This document shows, one piece after another, positions 1,339-13,184 of a stretch of DNA of 64,000 bases; the first letter of the stretch is position 1, and each line of letters starts with the position of its first letter. Position numbers and translations under genes: made by a program. Origin of the DNA: an uncultured Gemmatimonadota bacterium. Its GTDB lineage: Bacteria > Gemmatimonadota > Gemmatimonadetes > Gemmatimonadales > Gemmatimonadaceae. Under the pieces are notes generated by a model that saw only the letters and a program-made list of their open reading frames with translations, made no database searches and was not told where the DNA came from. The DNA is taken from positions 7,238-71,237 of the forward strand of contig CADEDA010000012.1 of NCBI GenBank assembly GCA_902825965.1. The letters run 5' to 3'.

Positions 1339-2646
1339 ATGTCCGCCCGCACGCTCACCTCGTTGGCGCAGGCTCTCGGCGCGGCGACCGATCTCGATGC
1401 TGCCCTCGTCGCCCTCTCGGGCGCATTGGCCGAGAGTGATCGCGACGCCACGCTCGCCCTGCTGCGGTTCGATTCCAAGCAAGGCCTGCTGCGCGAGCGG
1501 CTCACGGTCCGCGAGGGCCGCGTGGACCACGCACCGCTCGAGACCTCGCTCGAGCAGCTCCCGAGGCTGACGCTGCGGGCCGTGCAGGATGGCGGCACCT
1601 TCGCCGACCTCACGGAGGAGCCGCCCGCCTACGCGCGGCTGCTGCGCCTGCCCGAGCTCGAGGAGGGCGGCACGCTGGCGATCCGGGGCATCAAGGTGGA
1701 CGGACACCTGATCTGCCTGCTCACGCTCGGCGAACCGCGCCGGGTCTTCGGCACACGGGCGACGGAGCGCGTGGCCCCGTTGGCGGCGCTGTTCGAGCTC
1801 GCGGTGGCGCGATTCGTGGACCGCGAGGCGCGCGAGGAGGCGGCCCGCACGCTCGAGGAAGTCACGCAGCGGGTGCATGGCGAGTACCTCACCAAGCTCG
1901 GCACGCTCGAGCAGCAGGTCGCCTCGGCCCGCAAGGCGGCCAACACGCCGGCCGAGGATCCGGCGGCAACGGTGATGCGCGAGAAGGAGGAGGCGCGGCG
2001 GGCCGAGGAATCGCGGCGCACGCTGCGCCGGCTCGCGGCGCTGGAGCACCAGCTCACGGCTTCGGTCGGGCAGCTCGAGCAGGCACACATCGAGCTGCAT
2101 CGCCGGAGCGAGGCGCTGCGCCAACGCACGCGCACGCTCTACCTGCTCGATCGCGTGATGACACTCGCCGCCGAGACCAAGGACCCGCATCGGCTCGCGG
2201 AAGGGCTGCTCTCGATGGTCGGCGACGACATGCAGGCGCTCCGCTGCTCGTTGTTCCTGACCGGCAAGGAACCCAACACCATGTACCTCGCCGCCGCGCG
2301 CGGGCTCGCGCCGCATGTGCAGCTCGGCAAGGTCATCCAGGTGGGGCACGGCGTCGCCGGCAAGGTGGCCGAACGCCGCGAGCCCATGCTCGTGGTCGAT
2401 GCCGTCGATGCGAAGCAGACGCCGCTGCTCGGGGACGACTACCTGACCAGCGGCTCGTTCATCTCGTTCCCGCTCGTCCTGCACGGGGACCTGGTCGGCG
2501 TGGTGAACCTCACGAACCGCGCGCAGCGCGGCCTCTTCGTGGAGGAGGACGTCGAGCGCGTGCGCATGCTCGGCCTGGTGATCTCGCTGATCGCGAGCGA
2601 GGCGCGGCTCCGTGACGAACTCCACGGTTCACAGCGTGAGCGGTAG
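1339..2646 (+). CDS. Cytoplasmic GAF-domain protein with central coiled coil
   Basis: A 435-residue protein with no membrane segment. Residues 1-165 look like a degenerate GAF-type domain, residues 165-265 are Glu/Arg/Ala-rich coiled coil, and residues 270-430 form a recognisable GAF domain (LFLTGKEPN, VGHGVAGKVAERREP, SFISFPLVLHGDLVGVVNLT). There is no kinase, cyclase or output domain, so it is probably a ligand-sensing scaffold or partner for another signalling protein. The ATG at 1339 is chosen because earlier codons of the open frame lie in the leader and opposite truA. Its last 35 nt overlap trpD, so the two are co-expressed. Function unknown. Confidence 0.8.
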   Translation: MSARTLTSLAQALGAATDLDAALVALSGALAESDRDATLALLRFDSKQGLLRERLTVREGRVDHAPLETSLEQLPRLTLRAVQDGGTFADLTEEPPAYARLLRLPELEEGGTLAIRGIKVDGHLICLLTLGEPRRVFGTRATERVAPLAALFELAVARFVDREAREEAARTLEEVTQRVHGEYLTKLGTLEQQVASARKAANTPAEDPAATVMREKEEARRAEESRRTLRRLAALEHQLTASVGQLEQAHIELHRRSEALRQRTRTLYLLDRVMTLAAETKDPHRLAEGLLSMVGDDMQALRCSLFLTGKEPNTMYLAAARGLAPHVQLGKVIQVGHGVAGKVAERREPMLVVDAVDAKQTPLLGDDYLTSGSFISFPLVLHGDLVGVVNLTNRAQRGLFVEEDVERVRMLGLVISLIASEARLRDELHGSQRER

Positions 2647-3661
2647 TGCCCTCCAACCGATCCTGAGGAGACTCGCGACCGGCGCGGTGCTCACGGGCAC
2701 CGAGGCGGCCGACGCGTTCCGCACGGTGATGCAGGGCGAGGCCACGCCCGCCCAGATGGCGGCACTGCTCATGGCCCTGCGGGTGCGGGGAGAGACCGCG
2801 AGCGAGGTCGCCGGCGCGGCGAAGGCGCTACGCGAGGCCATGACGCGGTTGGTCGCCCCGGAGCCGGAGCGGTTGGTGGACACCTGCGGCACCGGCGGCG
2901 GTGCGGTCGGCACGTTCAACATCTCCACGGCGGCCGCCTTGCTCGCCGCCGGTGCCGGCGTCCGCATCGCCAAACACGGCAACCGCTCGTTCACCTCGCG
3001 CAGCGGCTCGGCGGATGTGCTGGAGGCGCTCGGGGTCCGCATCGACGTGCCGGTCGACCGGATGCGGCAGGTCCTCGACGACGCCGGCATCGTGTTCATG
3101 TTCGCGCCGACCATGCATCCGGCGATGCGGCATGTGGGGCCGGTCCGTCGTGAGATGGCCATCCAGACGGTGATGAATCTCGTCGGTCCGCTCGCGAATC
3201 CCGCGGGGGCCGGGCGGCAAGTGATCGGCGTGGCGGATCCCGCGCGGCTGGAGCTCATCGCGGGGGCGCTGGCGGAGCTGGGGACCACGCATTCACTCGT
3301 GGTGCACGGGGAGCCCGGAATGGACGAGATCAGTCCGTTGGGGCCCACGCGGGTGATCGAGATCCGCGGCGGCGAGCGCGTGGTGACGACGATCGATCCG
3401 GGTGCACTCGGATTCCGTGACGTGACCGCGGCCGAACTCGCCGGCGGCGAGCCGGCCGACAATGCCGCAACGATCGAGAAGGTGCTGCTGGGCAAGGGCA
3501 GCGCCGGTGCCTCGGCGGCCGTGCTCCTGAATGCCGGGGCGGCGATCTACGTGGCCGGGTTGGCACCTTCGATGGCCGAGGGGGTGGACGCCGCGCGCAC
3601 AGCACTCGCCGAGAAGCGCGGGTGGGACGCACTCGGCCGCCTCAAGGCCGTATCGATCTGA
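2612..3661 (+). CDS. trpD: Anthranilate phosphoribosyltransferase TrpD
   Basis: Second step of tryptophan synthesis: joins anthranilate to PRPP. Family signatures are DTCGTGGGAVGTFNIST (residues 90-106), where the glycines bind PRPP, and KHGNRSFTSRSGSADVLEALG around residues 121-141. Length 349 is normal. The GTG at 2612 overlaps the upstream GAF gene by 35 nt; a second in-frame GTG at 2636, inside the terminal codons of that gene, is an equally plausible start. trpE and trpG are not in the window, and the rest of the pathway is transcribed from a separate promoter beyond lexA. Confidence 0.95.
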   Translation: MTNSTVHSVSGSALQPILRRLATGAVLTGTEAADAFRTVMQGEATPAQMAALLMALRVRGETASEVAGAAKALREAMTRLVAPEPERLVDTCGTGGGAVGTFNISTAAALLAAGAGVRIAKHGNRSFTSRSGSADVLEALGVRIDVPVDRMRQVLDDAGIVFMFAPTMHPAMRHVGPVRREMAIQTVMNLVGPLANPAGAGRQVIGVADPARLELIAGALAELGTTHSLVVHGEPGMDEISPLGPTRVIEIRGGERVVTTIDPGALGFRDVTAAELAGGEPADNAATIEKVLLGKGSAGASAAVLLNAGAAIYVAGLAPSMAEGVDAARTALAEKRGWDALGRLKAVSI

Positions 3662-3662
3662 C

Positions 3663-3678
3663 GTCGGCGCGCGCCGAC
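3663..3678. terminator. GC palindrome between convergent trpD and lexA
   Basis: A perfect 16-bp palindrome (GTCGGCGC with its complement) fills the 28-nt gap between the ends of trpD and lexA. It could stop transcription from both sides, but there is no T-run. Confidence 0.4.
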
Positions 3679-3689
3679 TGCGGTAGGGC

Positions 3690-4298
3690 TCAGTAGCGCC
3701 GCATCACGCCGACCACGATCCCTTGTACGCGCACCTGGTTCTCCTGCACGTAGATGGGGGACATACTCGCATTCGCCGGTTGCAGGCGCACCCGCCCGTC
3801 GCGCTCGCGGTAGTACCGCTTCACGGTGGCCCCGGCGTCCTCAAGCATCGCAATCACCATCTCGCCGTTGTCCGCCGACGGACGGTCATGCACCACCACA
3901 TAGTCGCCGTCGCTGATCTGGTCTTCGATCATCGAGTTGCCACGGACCTTCAGCACGTAGTGGTTGCCGGCGCGCCGGACGAAATCGTCGGGCACGGCGA
4001 TGGTCTCCTGGCTCTCGAAGGCCTCGATCGGCACACCGGCCGCGACCGCGCCGAGCACCGGCAGTTCGATCGCCTTGGGGAAGATGTCCGAGGGCAGGAT
4101 CTCGATCGCGCGCGACTCGTTGTACGAGCGCTTGATGTAGCCCTTGCGCTCGAGGTTGCTCAGGTGCTCATGCACCGTGGCCAACGAGTTATAGTTGAAC
4201 TGTTCGGCGATCTCCTCGAAGCTCGGTGCGTACCCGTGCTCGCCGGCATAACTGGTGAGGAAATCCAGGATCTGGCGTTGGCGCTTGGTGAGCGGCAT
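3690..4298 (-). CDS. lexA: SOS repressor LexA
   Basis: Repressor of the DNA-damage response that cleaves itself when stimulated by RecA. The 202-residue protein has a winged-helix N-terminus (residues 1-65, with APSFEEIAEQFNYNS as the recognition region), the cleavage site Ala87-Gly88 (AVAAGVP), catalytic Ser122 in GNSMIEDQ and Lys160 in GATVKRYY. I start at the ATG at 4298 because AGGGA lies 8 nt upstream; an in-frame TTG 18 nt earlier is less likely. The promoter at 4388-4416 carries a LexA-type direct repeat in its spacer, which fits autorepression. It is divergent from trpC. Confidence 0.95.
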   Translation of the reverse strand: MPLTKRQRQILDFLTSYAGEHGYAPSFEEIAEQFNYNSLATVHEHLSNLERKGYIKRSYNESRAIEILPSDIFPKAIELPVLGAVAAGVPIEAFESQETIAVPDDFVRRAGNHYVLKVRGNSMIEDQISDGDYVVVHDRPSADNGEMVIAMLEDAGATVKRYYRERDGRVRLQPANASMSPIYVQENQVRVQGIVVGVMRRY

Positions 4299-4361
4299 CT
4301 CGGCGGTCCCTGGCAACTAATGAAGTGTGGTGGCGCGTTCGGCCCGAATGGCCTCGTCCCC

Positions 4362-4391
4362 TTGACTACCGAACAGTAACCGAAGTAACGG
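4362..4391 (+). promoter_or_regulatory. Predicted trpC operon promoter
   Basis: TTGACT at 4362 followed after 18 nt by TAACGG, a weak -10, pointing toward trpC. The first LexA-type repeat (4371-4385) lies in the spacer. Confidence 0.45.
4371..4385 (-). promoter_or_regulatory. LexA-box-like direct repeat 1
   Basis: On the minus strand CTTC-N7-GTTC, one mismatch from the GTTC-N7-GTTC operator described for alphaproteobacterial LexA. It sits between -35 and -10 of the predicted trpC promoter, just downstream of the lexA -10. Binding is inferred. Confidence 0.5.
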
Positions 4392-4416
4392 TATCCGAAC
4401 ATTGCCCGAAACACAA
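4388..4416 (-). promoter_or_regulatory. lexA promoter
   Basis: Minus-strand TTGTGT (4416-4411), a 17-nt spacer, then TACCGT (4393-4388). The leader to the lexA ATG is about 80 nt and ends in a good ribosome binding site. Confidence 0.6.
4397..4411 (-). promoter_or_regulatory. LexA-box-like direct repeat 2
   Basis: On the minus strand TTTC-N7-GTTC, inside the lexA promoter spacer and 26 bp from repeat 1. Both repeats share the extended form TTCGG-N6-TTCGG. Likely the lexA autoregulatory operator. Confidence 0.55.
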
Positions 4417-4440
4417 GCACCCCTTCACCGGGACGGGTTG

Positions 4441-5229
4441 GTGGGTCCCCTCGGCGAGCTGACCGCAGCGTCCCGCGAACGGGCACGTGCGTCCGAGGCC
4501 CAGCGCGCGCGCCTCGAACGCGAGGTCGCGGCGATGCCGGCCGCGGTCCCGTTCGCGGCGGCGCTGCGCGGCGCGCAGGTGCGCGTCATCGCCGAGCTCA
4601 AGCGGCGATCACCCAGCAAGGGGGTGATCAACGACGCGCTGCGAGCCGACGAGCGCGCGGTGGCCTACGCGAGCGGTGGCGCGTCCGCCCTCTCGGTGCT
4701 CACCGAACCGACCCGCTTCGGCGGCTCGCTCGAGGACCTGCGGGCGGTGCGCGCCGCGGTCGCTGTGCCGTTGCTCCGGAAGGACTTCATCACGGCGCAG
4801 ATCCAGTTGCTCGAGGCGCGCGTGGCGGGGGCCGCGGCGGCGCTGCTCATCGCGCGGGCCCTCCATGCGGACGAGCTCCGGCAGCTCGCGCGCGAGGCGC
4901 GGGAGCTGGGGCTCGACGTACTCGTGGAGGTGCGCAGCGAGGATGAGCTGGCCACCGCGCTCACGGTGCCCGACGCCGTGGTCGGCGTCAACAATCGCAA
5001 CCTCGAATCCCTCGCGATCGACGACGCCATCGGTGCGCGATTGCTGCCGCTCATCCCTCCGGCCCGTGTGGCGGTGTACGAGAGCGGGGTCCGGTCGGTG
5101 GCGGAGGTCGAACGCGCGGCGTCGATGGGCGCCGATGCCGTGCTCGTGGGGTCCGTGCTCTCGGCGGCCGAGGATCCGGTCCAGGCCGTGCGAGCACTCG
5201 CGGGAGTCATGCGTCGTGGACGAGACTGA
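4441..5229 (+). CDS. trpC: Indole-3-glycerol phosphate synthase TrpC
   Basis: Closes the indole ring in tryptophan synthesis. Catalytic signatures of the (beta/alpha)8 fold are visible: IAELKRRSPSKG (Glu52, Lys54), LLRKDFI (Lys114), LVEVRSEDE (Glu163), GVNNRNL and YESGV. GTG at 4441 is chosen since GGGACGGG lies just upstream and the protein then starts like other TrpC proteins; an in-frame TTG at 4402 would add 13 residues but falls inside the LexA-type repeat. Length 262. Its end overlaps trpF by 14 nt. First gene of a chain of nine overlapping genes. Confidence 0.94.
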   Translation: MGPLGELTAASRERARASEAQRARLEREVAAMPAAVPFAAALRGAQVRVIAELKRRSPSKGVINDALRADERAVAYASGGASALSVLTEPTRFGGSLEDLRAVRAAVAVPLLRKDFITAQIQLLEARVAGAAAALLIARALHADELRQLAREARELGLDVLVEVRSEDELATALTVPDAVVGVNNRNLESLAIDDAIGARLLPLIPPARVAVYESGVRSVAEVERAASMGADAVLVGSVLSAAEDPVQAVRALAGVMRRGRD

Positions 5230-5875
5230 GCTCAAGTTCTGCGGCCTCACCCGTGCGGAGGACGCTCGGGCGGCCGCCGAGCTGGACGCCGCGTATGCCG
5301 GCGTGGTGTTTGCCGGCGGACCGCGGAAACTCGACGCGGCACGGGCGGAGGCGGTGTTCGCCGGGCTCGGCGGTTGCGGCGTGCGCCGGGTCGGGGTCTT
5401 CGGTCCGGCGCAGGAGGTCCCCGAGATCCTGGCGACCTCCCGCGCGATCGGGCTCGATGTGATACAATTGCACGATAGCGGGACCGCCGACCGCACTCTA
5501 TTGTTGCGCCAAGAGTTCTTCGGCGAGATCTGGGTGGTGTTGGGCGTAAGCGGCTCGTCGTTTCAAGGCGTACCTCCGAATGTCGACCCGTCAATGGATG
5601 CCTTGGTGCTCGACACGGCGGTCGGCGGGCGCAGTGGTGGCACAGGAGTGACCTTTGACTGGGTGGCGGTGGCGCCGGCGGTCGCGGCGCTCAAGACGAA
5701 GCACCGCGTGGTGCTCGCCGGTGGACTGCGCCCGGGGAACGTGCGTGAGGCGGTGCGGACGCTCGCACCGCATGTGGTGGATGTCTCGTCCGGCGTGGAA
5801 TCCGCGCCGGGCATCAAGGATCCGACACTGATGCGAGCCTTCGCCACGGCGCTGCGCTCGCGCGAGGAGCGATGA
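5216..5875 (+). CDS. trpF: Phosphoribosylanthranilate isomerase TrpF
   Basis: Amadori rearrangement of phosphoribosylanthranilate, the step before TrpC. KFCGLTR at residues 7-13 holds the catalytic base Cys9, and [19 protein letters not shown] holds the catalytic acid Asp133 and phosphate-binding glycines. The end has the usual [15 protein letters not shown] signature. Starts at GTG 5216 within the end of trpC; the last 4 nt overlap trpB (ATGA). The middle part (residues 35-120) is more diverged than in typical TrpF, but no key residue is missing. Length 219. Confidence 0.93.
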
Positions 5876-7062
5876 CGCAGGCAGTGACCGACCGGTTCGG
5901 TGCATTCGGAGGCCGCTACGTCCCCGAGACGCTCGTGCCGGCGCTCGACGAACTCGAGCGCGCGCTGGCGGACGCGCTGGCGGACCCCACGTTCGCGTCG
6001 GAACTCGACGCGTTGCTCACGCACTACGTCGGCCGGCCCACGCCGCTCACGGATGCGCCGCGCCTCTCGGCGCACGTCGGGGCGCCGGTCTGGCTCAAGC
6101 GCGAGGACCTGAACCACACGGGGGCACACAAGATCAACAATGCCCTCGCGCAGGCCCTGCTGGCCAAGCGCATGGGCAAGCGTCGCATCATCGCGGAGAC
6201 CGGTGCGGGGCAGCACGGCGTGGCGACCGCCACCGTGTGCGCGCGGCTCGGCCTCGAGTGCATGGTGTACATGGGCGAGGAGGACATGAAGCGGCAGTCG
6301 CTGAACGTCTTCCGCATGCGGCTCATGGGCGCGACGGTGGTACCCGTCACCGCCGGGACGCGCACACTCAAGGACGCCACCAGTGAGGCGATCCGCGATT
6401 GGGTCAGCACCTGCACCCACTCGCACTACATCATCGGGTCGGTGGTCGGCCCCGCGCCGTACCCGCGCATGGTCCGGCACTTCCAGGCGATCATCGGGCG
6501 CGAGGCGCGGGCGCAGATGCTCGAGCGCGCCGGCCGGTTGCCGCACACCGTCGTCGCCTGCGTCGGCGGCGGATCCAACGCGATGGGCATCTTCCACGCG
6601 TTCGTGCCCGACGCCGCGGTGCGCCTCGTGGGAGTGGAAGCGGCGGGCGAGGGTATCGACACCGACCGGCACAGCGCCTCGCTGTCCAAGGGCGTGCCCG
6701 GCGTGCTCCACGGCACGCTGAGCTACCTGTTGCAGGACGCGCACGGCCAGGTGCACCCGGCGCACTCCATCTCGGCCGGTCTCGACTACCCCGGCGTGGG
6801 GCCCGAGCATGCGTTCCTCAAGGACTCGGGCCGCGCGACCTACGTCGCCGTGACGGACGACGCCGCACTCGAGGGGTTCGAGCTGCTGAGTCGCGCCGAG
6901 GGCATCATCCCTGCGCTGGAGACGTCGCACGCCGTGGCGTGGATCGCGTCGCAGGCCGGGCGCTGGGCGAGTGACGAGCCGGTGCTGCTCTGCCTGAGCG
7001 GCCGCGGCGACAAGGACGTGGCCACGGTGGCGCCGATGCTCGAGCTCGGAGGGCTCGCGTGA
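5872..7062 (+). CDS. trpB: Tryptophan synthase beta chain TrpB
   Basis: PLP enzyme that condenses indole with serine. The PLP lysine is Lys87 in HTGAHKINN, the phosphate loop is [10 protein letters not shown], and [10 protein letters not shown] and SGRGDKD are present. Length 396, as usual for TrpB1. It overlaps trpF by ATGA and the HEAT-repeat gene by GTGA. Unusually, trpA does not follow directly: two signalling genes (3.26 kb) come between the subunits of what is normally a tight alpha2beta2 complex. Confidence 0.97.
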
Positions 7063-8828
7063 GTTCGGCGCAGGCCGTCGCGGCGGCAGAGCAGGAGGAA
7101 CCGCCGTGCCCGCCGGCGATCGTCGAGGACATGTTCAAGGTCCTCGACAAGGCCATGCGCGCCTATCAGCTGTACATGCACAACAACCCCACCTACCAGA
7201 AGTCGCTCGAGAACGCGAAGAAGGCGTTCGAGCCGGTGTGGGCGCAGACGGGCAACCTGCCGATCACGGTCACCGACACGCAGTTCAAGTATTACGGGCG
7301 TGTGGTCCACGAGATGGCGGACAAGGGCGGCGACTCCATGCCCTGGTTGCTCTTCAAGGACGGACTGCGCGAGATGACGCTGTTCCCCGGGTTCGAGGAC
7401 GAGGAGCTGGCCAAGCTGCTCTCGATCTTCCCGCGGGTGCGGCGCGCGAAACCCGATGAGGACGACCTGCTGACCATCCTCTGGGAGCAGGACTTCCAGT
7501 ACATGCGCTACCGCTACGTCGAGATCGCCGATCCCTCGGCGCCGCTCGACACCAACGCGGAGCCCGGTCGCTGGCCGGCGCCGGTGGGCAAGGAGCTGGA
7601 GCCGGCGTGGAAGGCGGTCGAGGAGGCGCGCGCCGAGGTGGAGGAAGGGACGAGCGCCGGTGACGGGGCGTCGGCGCCCGCGCCGCGACCGTCGGGCATG
7701 GTGCGCATGGAGGATTTCGACTCCACGCTGTACTTCCTCGATCCCAACGAGATCGAGTACCTGCGCCAGGAGACCGACCGCGAATACAAGCTCGACCTGC
7801 GCCGCCTCGTGCTCTGCGCCCTGCTGGACATCTTCGAGCTGCAGGTGGATCCCCTCGTGCGGTCCGAGGTCGCCAACGACCTCGAGGCGCTCGTGCTGCA
7901 CCTGCTCTCGGCCGGGCAGTTCTCGTCGGTGGCGTTCCTCCTGCGGGAGATCGACGGGACCATGGAGCGCGCCCGCGAGGTGAAGCCGGCCGACCGGGAG
8001 CGGCTCGGGCGGCTCGCCGACCGGCTCAGCCACCCGGACTCGCTCGCGCAGATGCTGCAGGCGCTCGAGGAGACCGCGCAGCTGCCGTCGAAGGACGACC
8101 TCGCGCAGCTGTTCGCCCAGCTCAAGCCCGCCTCGCTGCCTGTGCTGCTGGATGCGATCGACCGCACGCAGAACGTCGAACTGCGACCGCTGCTCGAGTC
8201 CGCCACCGACCGGCTGGCGCAGTCCAACACGGGCGAGCTGGTGCGGCTCATCAAGAGCCCGAAGGTCTCGATCGCCCGCGAGGCGATCCGGCGTTCGGGG
8301 GCCTTGCGCACCGCGGCGGCGGTGCCCTCGCTCAGCGAGATGCTCTCGAGCGGCGCCGACCGGGTGCTGCGGGCCGCGGCGGTCACCGCACTCACCGACA
8401 TCGGCACGCCGGGTGCGCTCTCGGGCCTCGAACCGGCGCTCAACGACGAGGACCGCGACATCCGTGTCTCGACCATGCGCGCGCTGGGCGCGCGGACGCA
8501 TCGGCCGGCGCTGTCCAAGGTCGAAGCGCTCGTGAAAGGCAAGCTCAGCAAGGAGGCGGACCGCACGGAGCGGATCGCCCTCTTCGAGTTGTACGGCGCG
8601 ATCTGCGGCGACGGCGGTATCCCGCTGCTCGACGGGATCCTCGGCGCGAAGGGCGGCCTGTTCGCGCGCAAGGAGGATCCGGAGCTCCGGGCCTGCGCCG
8701 CGATCGCGCTCGGCAAGATCGGGAGCGCCGCGGCGCGCAGCGTGCTGGAGAAGTCGGTGGGTGAGAAGGACGTCATCGTCCGGGCGGCGGTGACGCGTGC
8801 CCTCAAGGGCCAGGCGGCCTCGGCATGA
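7059..8828 (+). CDS. HEAT-repeat protein, function unknown
   Basis: A soluble 589-residue protein with no signal peptide. Residues 25-125 form a helical/mixed module with [20 protein letters not shown] at 32-51; residues 230-390 are helical; residues about 395-589 are HEAT-type repeats (IREAIRRSG-like helices, [34 protein letters not shown]). HEAT repeats are protein-binding scaffolds. The N-terminal module resembles that of the HD-GYP protein encoded next (ALRNLKMYPVENPVVQKGLE), and the two genes overlap by ATGA, which suggests they act as a pair. GTG start overlaps the trpB stop. No known role; a regulatory partner of the HD-GYP protein is my inference. Confidence 0.8.
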
Positions 8829-10327
8829 GCGGCTCGGCGCCGGGCGGATCGCCCCCACCGCGGCAGTCGGTCGCGCGCAGCACGCCGGTGACCGCCAGCG
8901 CGGGACTCGGCGAGGGTACCGTGCGGCGCATCGGCCGCAGCTGGGTGCTCGGCTTCTATGTCGCGCTCCGCAACTTGAAGATGTACCCGGTCGAGAACCC
9001 TGTCGTGCAGAAGGGGCTCGAGGACCTCAGCGGCCTCTCCGGCGAGCTGCTCGCCGGCGACGGGGAGTGCGACTTCCGGCTCGCCGGGGAGTTCCTGTTC
9101 CTGAACGCGACCCGGATGAAGCTCGATCTCGACAACTACACGAGCTTCTCCTACATCCTCGGCCGCTGTCGCGAGGCCGGCGTGGGCGTGATCCGCTTCC
9201 ACGAGAAGCCCTCGCTGCGCGACTGGACCGTGCTGCTCTCGTTCCTGTCCTCGCCGATGGGGCGGGCGCCGGCGGAGCGGTACGAGTTGCTGCTCAAGCG
9301 ACTCGCCGACACCAACGTCTCCGTGTTCGAGGTGACGCCGCCCGTCGAGGCGGCCGACGACCCGGCCGATGCGGGCGAGGCGAAGGAGCGCGCCAAGCGC
9401 ACGTACCAGCAGTCGGTGACGACCACCAAGGAAGTCATCAACTCGGTGCGCATGGGGCAGAGCCCCAACATCAAGAAGATCAAGCGCGTGGTGCAGGGCA
9501 TCGTCGACCAGATCCTCTCGGAGGAGACGTCGCTGATCGGACTCACCACCATCCGCGACTACGACGACTACACGTTCACGCACTGCGTCAACGTCTGCAT
9601 CTTCTCGGTCGCGCTCGGGCGACGCCTCGGGCTCACGCGCCTGCAGCTGTACGACCTCGGCTTCGCGGGCCTGTTCCACGACATCGGCAAGTCGCGCGTC
9701 CCCATCGACATCATCCAGAAGCCCGACATGCTGAGCGAGGAGGAGTGGCGCCTCGTCGCGGCACATCCCTGGCTCGGGGTGCTGGCGCTCTTCCAGCTGC
9801 GCGAGCAGTCGGAGTTCCCGTACCGGTCCATGCTGGTCGCGTACCAGCATCACATGAAGCGCGACCTCACCGGCTATCCGCGATCGCTGCGGATGACGGA
9901 GATGTCGTTCTACAGCAAGATCGTCGCGGTGGCGGACGGTTTCGATGCGGCCACCACGCGCCGCGTCTACCAGTCCGACCCGCTCGACCCGGCGGTCGTG
10001 CTGCAGGAGATGCGGGACAGCCCGCGCCGTGGCATGGACCCGGTGATCGTGAAGGCCTTCGTCGCGTTGCTGGGCGTGTACCCGGTCGGCACGTTCGTGG
10101 TGCTCGACACCTTCGAGCTCGCGATCGTGCACGGAGCGAACCCGTTGCCGGAGTTCGTCTCGCGCCCGATCATCCGCATCGTGAGCGACGCCCTGGGCAA
10201 CGTCGAGCACCCGGGACGCCTCGTGGACCTGGCCGAGCGCGACGCGGCGGGCAACTTCGTGCGCACCATCATCAAGACGGGTGATCCCGAGCGGTACGGC
10301 ATCCGTGTGGGAGACTACTTCCTCTGA
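8825..10327 (+). CDS. HD-GYP domain protein (probable c-di-GMP phosphodiesterase)
   Basis: A 500-residue cytoplasmic protein. Residues 40-165 are a sensory-like module shared with the preceding HEAT protein; residues about 240-430 are an HD-GYP domain. Metal ligands are in place: His253, His285-Asp286 (HDIGK), His314 (HPWLG), His342-His343 and Asp371 (VADGFD). The GYP loop is HHMKRDLTGYP, where most family members have HHERxDGxGYP, so metal binding looks intact but the signature loop is altered. It may hydrolyse c-di-GMP or a related dinucleotide; no GGDEF or EAL protein lies in the window. The stop forms a CTGA junction with trpA. Confidence 0.88.
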   Translation: MSGSAPGGSPPPRQSVARSTPVTASAGLGEGTVRRIGRSWVLGFYVALRNLKMYPVENPVVQKGLEDLSGLSGELLAGDGECDFRLAGEFLFLNATRMKLDLDNYTSFSYILGRCREAGVGVIRFHEKPSLRDWTVLLSFLSSPMGRAPAERYELLLKRLADTNVSVFEVTPPVEAADDPADAGEAKERAKRTYQQSVTTTKEVINSVRMGQSPNIKKIKRVVQGIVDQILSEETSLIGLTTIRDYDDYTFTHCVNVCIFSVALGRRLGLTRLQLYDLGFAGLFHDIGKSRVPIDIIQKPDMLSEEEWRLVAAHPWLGVLALFQLREQSEFPYRSMLVAYQHHMKRDLTGYPRSLRMTEMSFYSKIVAVADGFDAATTRRVYQSDPLDPAVVLQEMRDSPRRGMDPVIVKAFVALLGVYPVGTFVVLDTFELAIVHGANPLPEFVSRPIIRIVSDALGNVEHPGRLVDLAERDAAGNFVRTIIKTGDPERYGIRVGDYFL

Positions 10328-11109
10328 CCCCCTCGCTCTCGCAGCACCTCACCGCGCTGCGCTCGTCGGGCCGCAAGGCGCTCGTCTGCTACATCACGGC
10401 CGGCCACCCGGATCGCGCGGCCACGCTGCGGCTGCTGCGCGAACTGCCGGCCGCCGGGGCCGACGTGATCGAGGTCGGCGTGCCGTTCTCGGATCCGCTC
10501 GCGGACGGCCCCATCATCCAGCAGAGTTCGCAGCGCGCGCTGGAGCAGGGCATGACCCTCGCGGGGACGCTCGCGCTGGTGGCGGAGGCGCGGACCTCGG
10601 TGCCCGTGGTGCTCTTCAGCTACCTGAATCCGCTGCTCGCGGCGGGCGCGGAGGTGTTGCACCTGGCCGCGCGGTCCGGTGTACACGGCGTCCTCGTCAC
10701 CGACCTGCCCGTGGGCATGGACCCCGAGCGCGAGGCCTGGCTGGGGGCGAGTCCGGTGGAGTTCGTGCGCCTCGTCGCCCCGACGACGCCGCGCGAGCGC
10801 ATGGCCGAGATCGCCCGGCACGGCAAGGGGTTCGTCTACCTGATCAGCCGGCTCGGCGTGACGGGCGTGCAGGAGTCGGTGAGCACGGACCTGCCGGCCA
10901 CGCTGGCGCGGCTGCGTGAGGTCTGCGATCTCCCGATCTGCGTCGGGTTCGGGATCTCCAAGCCCGAGCACGCGCGCCAGGTCGGCGCGCTGGCGGACGG
11001 GATCGTGGTGGGCAGCGCGGTCGTGCGTGCCGCCGAGCAGAGCGTCGACGCGGCGCTCGCCCTCGTGCGTGCGCTGCGCCGCGCCCTCGACGCACCGGTG
11101 CACGCGTGA
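10324..11109 (+). CDS. trpA: Tryptophan synthase alpha chain TrpA (CTG start)
   Basis: Cleaves indole-3-glycerol phosphate to indole for TrpB. With translation from CTG at 10324 the protein has 261 residues, the family length, and the catalytic Glu50 ([18 protein letters not shown]) and Asp61 match E49 and D60 of the enterobacterial enzyme. The frame is closed by TGA at 10282 and contains no ATG, GTG or TTG before GTG 10465; starting there would delete the first strand ([10 protein letters not shown]). So CTG, overlapping the upstream stop as CTGA, is the only start that gives a whole enzyme. The 3' end overlaps the next gene by GTGA. Confidence 0.93.
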
Positions 11110-13184
11110 ACGCGGTCCTCAACCTCTATCGGCTCGCGCTGCCGAGCGTCGGCGGCCTCATCGTGGCCGCCGGACTGCTCTTCACCTCGGAGTGGTTCGA
11201 TCACCTGGGCTGGATCGTCGCGCTCTCCGCGATCACCGCGTACCTGCGTCGCGACCAGCTCCCGGTCACCAAGTACACGGCCATCCACCTGCTCGGCATC
11301 GTGGCGGTGGGCGGCGCCGTCATCGTGGGCCTCGTGCCCACGACCATGTCGCTCGGCCTGGGCATCGTCGCGGCGGACCTCATCTGGCTCCGGCGCAACT
11401 GGACCGCCGCATGGATGAACGCCTCGCGCGAGATCACCGCCATCGCGTCGGCCTTCGGGTGGTACGCCTGGGCGCGCGGACCCCTGGGCGCGGACGAGAC
11501 GGTGCTGAGCGGGCAGACCGTGCCCGCGATCGCGCTGTTCCTGCTGCTGCACTTCCTCATCGCGAAGGGGCTGTACTACTTCACGCTCTCGGTGCGCGGC
11601 AAGCTGTCGCCCGAGGAGCGCTCGCTGATCCTGCGCTACGAGGTCATCGGCCTGGGCGCGGTGGCCGGCGGGATCGCGGCGATCCTGCTCTCGTTGGCAT
11701 TCCTCGGCTGGCTCGGCACGGGCATCGTGCTCCTCGTCCTCGGCTTCGCGGGCCTGCTGCTCAAGCGCATCCTCGAGGAGAGTATCGCGGCGGAGGAGCT
11801 CAACACGGTGCTCGCGATGGAGCTGGCCGTCGCGGCCGACGCCAACATGGGCGATGCGATCGCGCGGATCGAGTTGCTCGCCAATCGCCTGCTGGAATGG
11901 AAGGAGCTGCGCGTCCTCCGGGCCGACCGCGGCGTGGTGCAGTTGATCTATCGCAGCGGCCCCGGCCTGCTCACGCCGCCGCAGCCCGAGCCCAAGGACG
12001 GCGAACGGTTGCGCCGCGAGGTGCTCGAGACCGGACGGCCGATCATCCTCGTGGACGCGGACCGGGATCCGCGCGTGGAGCGTCCGCTGCCGGACGCCGC
12101 GTCGCGTGCCGTGGTCCCCCTGCGCTTCGGGGACCACACGATCGGCCTGCTCGAACTGGACACGCACAAACGCGGCTCGTACGGCGTGAAGGAGTCGCTG
12201 CTGATCCGGCGCGTGGCCAACCAGTTCGCGACGGCGATCCACATCCTCGACCTGCGGAACCCGTTGCTCGAGACGGTGGACCGCCTCTCGCGCGAGCTCG
12301 CGACGCTGACGGCCTCGGCGCGCACGCTGCGCAGCGGCGGCGAGGCCATCGCCCGCACCGCGGGCGAGATCGAACGGGCGGTTTCCGAGGAGGGCGAGCA
12401 GCTCAAGCGCGGCCTCGATGCGACGACCTCGCTGGAGTCGCGGTCCCGCGCGGTGGCGAGTGACGCCCGCGAGGCCCAGGACGCGACCCGGAAGGCCAGC
12501 GTGATCGCCACCGAGAACCGGCAGACGGTCGACGCCGCGATGGAGCGGCTCGTCGCCGCGAAGGGCTTCGTCGCCGAGAGCTCGGCCAAGGTCAAGGTGC
12601 TGGCGACCACGACCTCGCAGGTCACGGGATTCATCTCGGTCATCCGCGAGCTCGCGGTACAGACGAACCTGCTGGCGCTCAATGCGGCCATCGAGGCGGC
12701 GCGCGCCGGGCACGAGGGGCGCGGCTTCGCCGTGGTCGCGGACGAGGTGCGGAAGCTCGCCGAGGAGAGCGGCAAGGCGGCCGATGATGCGCAGGGTGTG
12801 CTGCGGGAGTTCGAGGAGCAGATGCGCGAGACGGCGGCGCTGATGGGACGCGGTGAGGCCCTGGTCGCCGACGCGGAGTCGTTCTCCGGCGGGTCCCGGG
12901 AGGCGCTGAGTGCGATCGTGACGGCGACGAGCGGCGCCGCCGGCCAGTCGGCGCGGATCGCCACGGCGGCGGACGACCAGGGCGTGGAGGTCGCGCGTCT
13001 CCGCGACCGCGTGAACCGCGTGACGGAGATCGCCACGAAGAACCGTGCCGGGGCGCAGCACGTCGCGGCGGCCTCCGGCGACCAGGCCGCGGCGTTGCGC
13101 GAGTTGGAGACCGCGACGAACGTGCTGAAGCAGGTGGTCAGCGAACTCGCCGACCTCACCCGACGGATCACCAACACCCGATGA
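11106..13184 (+). CDS. Membrane methyl-accepting chemotaxis-type protein with GAF domain
   Basis: A 692-residue signal transducer. Residues 1-230 contain about seven hydrophobic helices with short loops, i.e. a membrane-embedded sensor and no periplasmic domain. Residues 240-390 form a GAF-like domain ([16 protein letters not shown]), followed by a long coiled-coil signalling region to the C-terminus. Its hairpin tip is well conserved: [17 protein letters not shown] followed by [18 protein letters not shown]. No HAMP domain is evident. No che genes are in the window, so its kinase partner is elsewhere. GTG start overlaps the trpA stop; ATGA overlap with the next gene. Co-transcription with trp genes is striking. 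Confidence 0.9.

Follow-up and report, generated by a model that had tools for sequence, protein, structure and literature searches.

In a 64-kb stretch of DNA from a bacterium of the phylum Gemmatimonadota (referred to below as the window), two direct repeats lie in the region between the divergent genes lexA and trpC, which raises the question of what protein they bind and which of the two genes they serve. An earlier note, made from the sequence alone, had described them as minus-strand TTTC-N7-GTTC and CTTC-N7-GTTC, 26 bp apart, sharing the longer form TTCGG-N6-TTCGG, and this is exactly what the sequence contains. The two sites, named O1 and O2 (Table 1), have a start-to-start distance of 26 bp on the minus strand and are the only exact matches to TTCGG-N6-TTCGG in the window. 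If one mismatch in the ten core bases is allowed, the window has three matches compared to about 4.5 expected by chance, and isolated near-matches are therefore meaningless; the adjacent exact pair O1/O2 is not a product of chance. Across the whole 4.07-Mb genome, the ten-base core has 16 exact matches, while a reversed control has one. A 12-base form, CCGAACA-N4-CCGAA, is found five times exactly and, with one mismatch, 21 times versus four for its reversed control. A control with the wrong spacing (N5) returned 71 matches with at most one mismatch, none of them at lexA. A row of near-copies of CCGAACA-N5-CCGAA with a period of 12 bp (L002, G000:C10:107734-107786) came up in this wrong-spacing search.

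Table 1. Positions of the operators, promoter elements and genes around lexA and trpC in the window
Feature	Position	Strand	Remarks
trpD	2612-3661	plus	convergent with lexA
lexA coding region	3690-4298	minus	ATG at 4298; longest ORF from 4316
TTGACT, proposed trpC -35 element	4362-4367	plus	not supported as conserved promoter element
LexA operator O2 (predicted, downstream site)	4369-4384	minus	TTCGGTTACTGTTCGG, exact TTCGG-N6-TTCGG (4384-4369)
lexA -10 element TACCGT (TAnnnT)	4388-4393	minus	alignment of 68 lexA promoters
LexA operator O1 (predicted, upstream site)	4395-4410	minus	TTCGGGCAATGTTCGG, exact TTCGG-N6-TTCGG (4410-4395); counterpart in 68/68 aligned lexA promoters
lexA -35 element TTGTGT	4411-4416	minus	TTG columns 63-67 of 68
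trpC	4402-5229	plus	TrpC family matches, best 237.8 bits, just below the 260-bit cut-off
trpC candidate start TTG	4402-4404	plus	within O1; alternatives TTG 4438, GTG 4441
trpB	5872-7062	plus	ORF; downstream of trpC and trpF, same orientation

The repeats are conserved at lexA across the phylum. Loci of lexA were drawn from genomes of the same phylum and the upstream DNA of 70 of them, from nine families, was examined: all 70 promoters have at least two copies of the motif, all in the sense of lexA (one mismatch in the ten core bases allowed; the sampled genomes are related and hence dependent samples). Of the spacings between sites, 40 are 26 bp and 61 fall within 24-28 bp. The core letters are near-invariant across the lexA operators, with the GG of TTCGG nearly invariant, and the 11-bp period of the direct repeat (TTCGG-N6-TTCGG) is found in every sampled operator; the six middle bases are variable, apart from a preference for T and then G directly 5' of the second half-site. 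The base 5' of the first TTC is C in 51%, T in 20% and G in 13% of cases and the base 5' of the second TTC is G in 57%, and with such flanking bases the alphaproteobacterial definition, in which both half-sites are GTTC, does not describe the lexA operators of Gemmatimonadota. This conservation spans all nine families, down to a LexA identity of about 60%.

When 68 of the lexA promoters are aligned on O1, a promoter consensus emerges, cTTGnnn-[O1]-n-TAnnnT. The three TTG columns of the -35 element are conserved in 63, 67 and 63 of the 68 promoters, and in the -10 element TAnnnT the first T is present in 68, the A in 66 and the last T in 68. The spacer of this promoter has 17 nucleotides and consists of O1 and one further base. 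The placement of O1 within a 17-nt lexA promoter spacer, as put forward in the earlier note, thus holds: TTGTGT and TACCGT flank O1, and the promoter is conserved class-wide. O2 starts a few nucleotides past the -10 element of lexA, across the predicted start point of lexA transcription.

The most likely explanation, to which we assign a probability of about 0.93, is that O1 and O2 are tandem operators for the SOS repressor LexA, through which this protein represses its own gene. Each operator would consist of two head-to-tail TTCGG half-sites, 11 bp or about one helical turn apart; bound to O1, a LexA dimer would occupy the lexA promoter between its -35 and -10 elements, and a dimer bound to O2 would sit over the start point. 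Since the LexA dimer is two-fold symmetric, binding to a direct repeat requires that one domain is rotated, a geometry that is accepted for Alphaproteobacteria.

The earlier note had proposed a scan of other SOS genes: the repeat is present before recA and imuA, but not before uvrA. A motif in the same sense within 300 bp upstream is found at all 30 recA loci (within one mismatch; often as TTCGT/TTCGC-N6-TTCGG) and at 18 of 23 imuA loci, or 18 of the 21 imuA loci for which upstream DNA is present; the other three of these 21 have no motif within 300 bp. The background is two in 513 random 300-bp windows. In the genome under study, imuA has two exact sites upstream and is followed by imuB and a gene for an error-prone polymerase of the DnaE2 type (dnaE2), and recA is preceded by two sites with one mismatch each; several recA promoters, like that of imuA, bear two sites. 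At both uvrA copies of this genome there is no suitably placed site (one locus has two one-mismatch matches, which are not promoter-like), and uvrA was dropped as an operator target. An operator at uvrA is common in LexA regulons, but not universal. With LexA as the regulator, DNA damage would cause RecA-stimulated self-cleavage of LexA and, by this, the joint release of lexA, recA and the mutagenesis cassette imuA-imuB-dnaE2; we infer binding, repression and damage induction.

Further exact sites of this genome were not taken as targets: several are within apparent genes (L031, L049, L050) or between genes of the wrong orientation (L041). One more exact site, in the usual orientation, lies some 140 bp upstream of msrB-msrA and has a TetR-like gene in divergent orientation (L032:1501-1516). 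Another operator-like exact site is found where a gene of the DinB family (PF05163; L033:1501-1516) starts, with an orientation opposite to the sites of lexA and recA. In other genomes, exact sites recurrently precede radical-SAM and ImuA-like genes and in one case an S24-peptidase gene, with gene calling too crude for a regulon list. The radical-SAM gene was seen behind exact sites at L320, L323, L329 and L355 (Pfam search on L320) and the S24-peptidase gene, which is UmuD-like, at L344.

In principle, a regulator other than LexA that is shared by lexA, recA and imuA would yield the same pattern. We consider this very improbable: the genes with the repeat, lexA, recA and imuA-imuB-dnaE2, are the classical LexA set, the half-site includes the TTCG of known LexA half-sites and the LexA protein encoded here has a DNA-binding domain, an aligned Ala-Gly site and a Ser/Lys dyad. 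The protein matches the LexA family model TIGR00498 with 208.9 bits (cut-off 110.95), and its N-terminal winged-helix domain (PF01726, 74.0 bits) and C-terminal S24 peptidase domain (PF00717, 110.4 bits) are both above cut-off. It aligns to solved LexA structures: VAAG, GNSM and TVKRY correspond to VAAG, GMSM and TVKRL in the solved LexA of the E. coli type, and by this alignment both the Ala-Gly cleavage site and the Ser/Lys dyad are present.

The second part of the question is whether one of the two sites belongs to trpC. The earlier note had placed O2 in the spacer of a predicted trpC promoter and suggested SOS control of the trpC chain. If so, O1 and O2 would be separate operators, one for lexA and one for trpC, and the trpC chain would be an ordinary SOS operon. 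The letters TTGACT are indeed there, at a promoter-like distance before O2 in this genome, and most relatives have a divergent trpC. However, the corresponding -10 element is poor, a consensus scan of positions 3500-4600 found no sigma-70-like promoter, an alignment of related loci shows that TTGAC lacks conservation even among members of the genus, and O2 has no conserved promoter next to it on the side of trpC. Moreover, loci that have no divergent trpC retain O1 and O2 with unchanged spacing, among them two of the same genus (L056, L057) as well as L090, L094, L097, L109, L117, L120 and L121; two-site promoters are equally found at imuA and several recA genes, as described above. As O2 persists without trpC and the proposed trpC promoter is unconserved, O2 is best regarded as an operator of lexA; both the predicted trpC promoter and O2 as a trpC-specific operator were rejected, and SOS control of the trpC chain via O2 is not supported. 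Separate operators are an improbable reading of this locus.

The predicted autorepression of lexA by LexA on O1 and O2 would take place in an unusual setting, though, as lexA is nested in antisense orientation between trpD and trpC, within the trp operon, throughout the class. The order trpD(+)-lexA(-)-trpC(+) is present in 64 of the 67 scored loci that have trpC and room for trpD, and trpB is downstream of trpC in related loci too (tblastn). In 86 of 121 distinct loci a candidate start codon of trpC is in O1 or abuts it, usually as the TTG of the spacer or as a GTG that overlaps the -35 element of lexA, and 58 of the 121 loci have no alternative trpC start 5' of the conserved part of TrpC. 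The O1 spacer reads TTG in the sense of trpC in 67 of 121 divergent loci compared to 0 of 25 loci without trpC (Fisher p 3.5e-8, with related genomes treated as independent). Thus, in loci with the trpC start in or at O1, transcription of trpC has to pass the predicted LexA sites, and LexA could act as a roadblock to trpC; SOS control of trpC is in this way a possibility, on grounds other than those of the earlier note. As a consequence of this layout, LexA on O1 and O2 may impede transcription into trpC; in our estimate the chance of this is slightly less than even.

A more specific form of this idea, which would add to lexA autorepression and not replace it, is that trpC lacks its own promoter: transcription would read through from trpD across the antisense lexA, as in a non-contiguous operon, and LexA on O1 and O2 would be a roadblock. 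DNA damage might then raise trpC expression at the same time as lexA transcription opposes it. The gene order, the position of the trpC start (the sole start in 58 loci) and the TTG of the O1 spacer all fit, and a crude scan of 3500-4600 found no intrinsic terminator on the plus strand. On the other hand, trpC could equally well have a weak or leaderless promoter near O1/O2, and the Fisher test overstates the independence of the genomes. We put forward both the read-through and its damage response tentatively, as being less likely than not. The same caution goes for the general picture, that in most of the phylum lexA is antisense in the trp operon, with O1 containing the trpC start codon, and that LexA may be both autorepressor and roadblock on trpCFB transcription. 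If it is true, DNA damage would alter tryptophan synthesis, and trp transcription would be antisense to lexA. In any case, the position of lexA between trpD and trpC, where an operator holds a start codon, lends itself naturally to the study of roadblocking and antisense transcription. Non-contiguous operons, as reviewed in PMC7154746, likewise have an antisense gene between the genes of one operon, with trpD-[lexA]-trpC being known from gene order; the difference is that the operators of the nested lexA also coincide with the start codon of trpC.

Further downstream in the window, trpB and a trpA-like gene are separated by two ORFs, a long one at 7059-8828 and an HD-GYP-like one at 8825-10327; start and stop codons overlap along this stretch, so that the two look like part of the trp operon. 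A chemoreceptor-like gene (11106-13184) follows the stretch of the HD-GYP-like ORF and the trpA-like gene.

How far does the tandem operator reach? The tandem pattern with 26-bp spacing was searched in 84,980 genomes and is present in at least 117 stretches. Among the matches listed, 111 of 117 are fewer than 400 bp ahead of a lexA gene, in the same sense, and nearly all are labelled Gemmatimonadota. Of the six listed matches that are not at lexA, one is before a dnaE2-like gene (L129), one ends close to the edge of its contig (L179), three are simple repeats (L126, L214 and apparently L125), and the sixth is L165. L164, labelled Candidatus Kuenenia, has the typical Gemmatimonad trpD-lexA-trpC block and a LexA that is 73% identical and is probably a misbinned contig. 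L149, labelled Spirochaetota, has the same tandem TTCGG operator in front of a lexA whose product is only 38% identical and which is followed by imuB-like and dnaE2-like genes. Its two nearest relatives have similar repeats and a fourth genome has a single TTCGT repeat (relatives L383-L385), while no such repeats occur in the remaining 21 lexA upstream regions of this comparison. In a sister class of Gemmatimonadota the lexA promoter contains TTCGC-N6-TTCGC twice, about 33 bp apart (L293, L295-L298), and these operators sit in near-consensus promoters resembling TTGACT-17-TATAAT. As read from these promoters, the LexA code of the phylum thus differs by a single letter from one class to the other (TTCGG to TTCGC), which informs on how LexA changes its target.

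Gemmatimonadota are common in soils. The repeats almost certainly define, as judged from sequence comparison, a LexA operator variant that is new for this phylum: our literature search, of incomplete coverage, found no earlier report of a Gemmatimonadota LexA motif. The data provide a specific LexA code and a core regulon for a phylum for which no description of the SOS response was found. Seventeen LexA motifs had been reported by 2021 (PMC8565304), and direct-repeat motifs are already known from Alphaproteobacteria and Balneolaeota (PMC7739468; PMC8565304). The Gemmatimonadota thus join the groups beyond Alphaproteobacteria that have a direct-repeat operator for LexA, here a predicted one, which bears on the question of how LexA changes its target. 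The idea of the earlier note that a phylum distant from Alphaproteobacteria has a LexA operator of the direct-repeat kind finds strong support in the presence of the same repeat before recA and imuA-imuB-dnaE2.

As positive controls, the same procedure recovered GTTC-N7-GTTC (on either strand) at three alphaproteobacterial lexA genes and CTGT-N8-ACAG at lexA of E. coli; upstream of the Bacillus control lexA, the strict CGAAC-N4-GTTCG was not found, so the Bacillus comparison gave no information. The alphaproteobacterial operator GTTC-N7-GTTC (Caulobacter, Rhizobiales) is like the one described here in its 11-bp direct repeat, in TTC-N8-TTC and in lexA autoregulation, which is a prediction on the Gemmatimonadota side; Alphaproteobacteria also have LexA sites before recA and imuA-imuB-dnaE2. 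Gemmatimonadota differ in the half-site TTCGG (TTCGC in the sister class), the tandem operators 26 bp apart around the -10 element, the type of recognition helix and the antisense position of lexA within the trp operon. The box of Gram-positive LexA (DinR), CGAAC-N4-GTTCG in Bacillus, has the TTCG half-site core in common with the Gemmatimonadota operator, but is an inverted repeat and not a direct one. The Balneolaeota operator, TTACACATATTTTWTACATA, was found by promoter comparison and confirmed by gel shift (PMC7739468). Like the predicted one of Gemmatimonadota, it is a direct-repeat LexA operator outside Proteobacteria; it is an unrelated AT-rich sequence of another phylum, and the part of PMC7739468 consulted describes no trp nesting.

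The likeness to Alphaproteobacteria could mean that Gemmatimonadota inherited operator and LexA from this group, or exchanged them with it, instead of evolving them independently. Both groups share the 11-bp period and TTC-N8-TTC, and lexA adjoins trp genes in the Sargasso Sea metagenome too (PMC2395257). There, lexA is always after trpC, different from the antisense lexA between trpD and trpC in Gemmatimonadota: gene order and orientation are not the same. In a tree of 16 LexA sequences, Gemmatimonadota and Alphaproteobacteria are weakly supported neighbours (80/82), but this kinship was not upheld with more sequences: in a tree of 28, Alphaproteobacteria group with other phyla, apart from Gemmatimonadota and a small Spirochaetota-labelled group (90/84), and a joint clade of Gemmatimonadota and Alphaproteobacteria is disfavoured, although with a p-AU of 0.073 it is not rejected. 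The recognition helix SLATVHEHL, too, is nearer to SSSTVHGHL of Bacillus than to the alphaproteobacterial SKSGVHRLI, and the Bacillus type, TVHxHL, is the closest among those aligned. A common origin with the alphaproteobacterial system thus appears unlikely to us, and an independent origin of the Gemmatimonadota direct-repeat operator is favoured by these comparisons. Many genomes of the same family have two LexA matches, which may point to a second, LexA-like paralogue.
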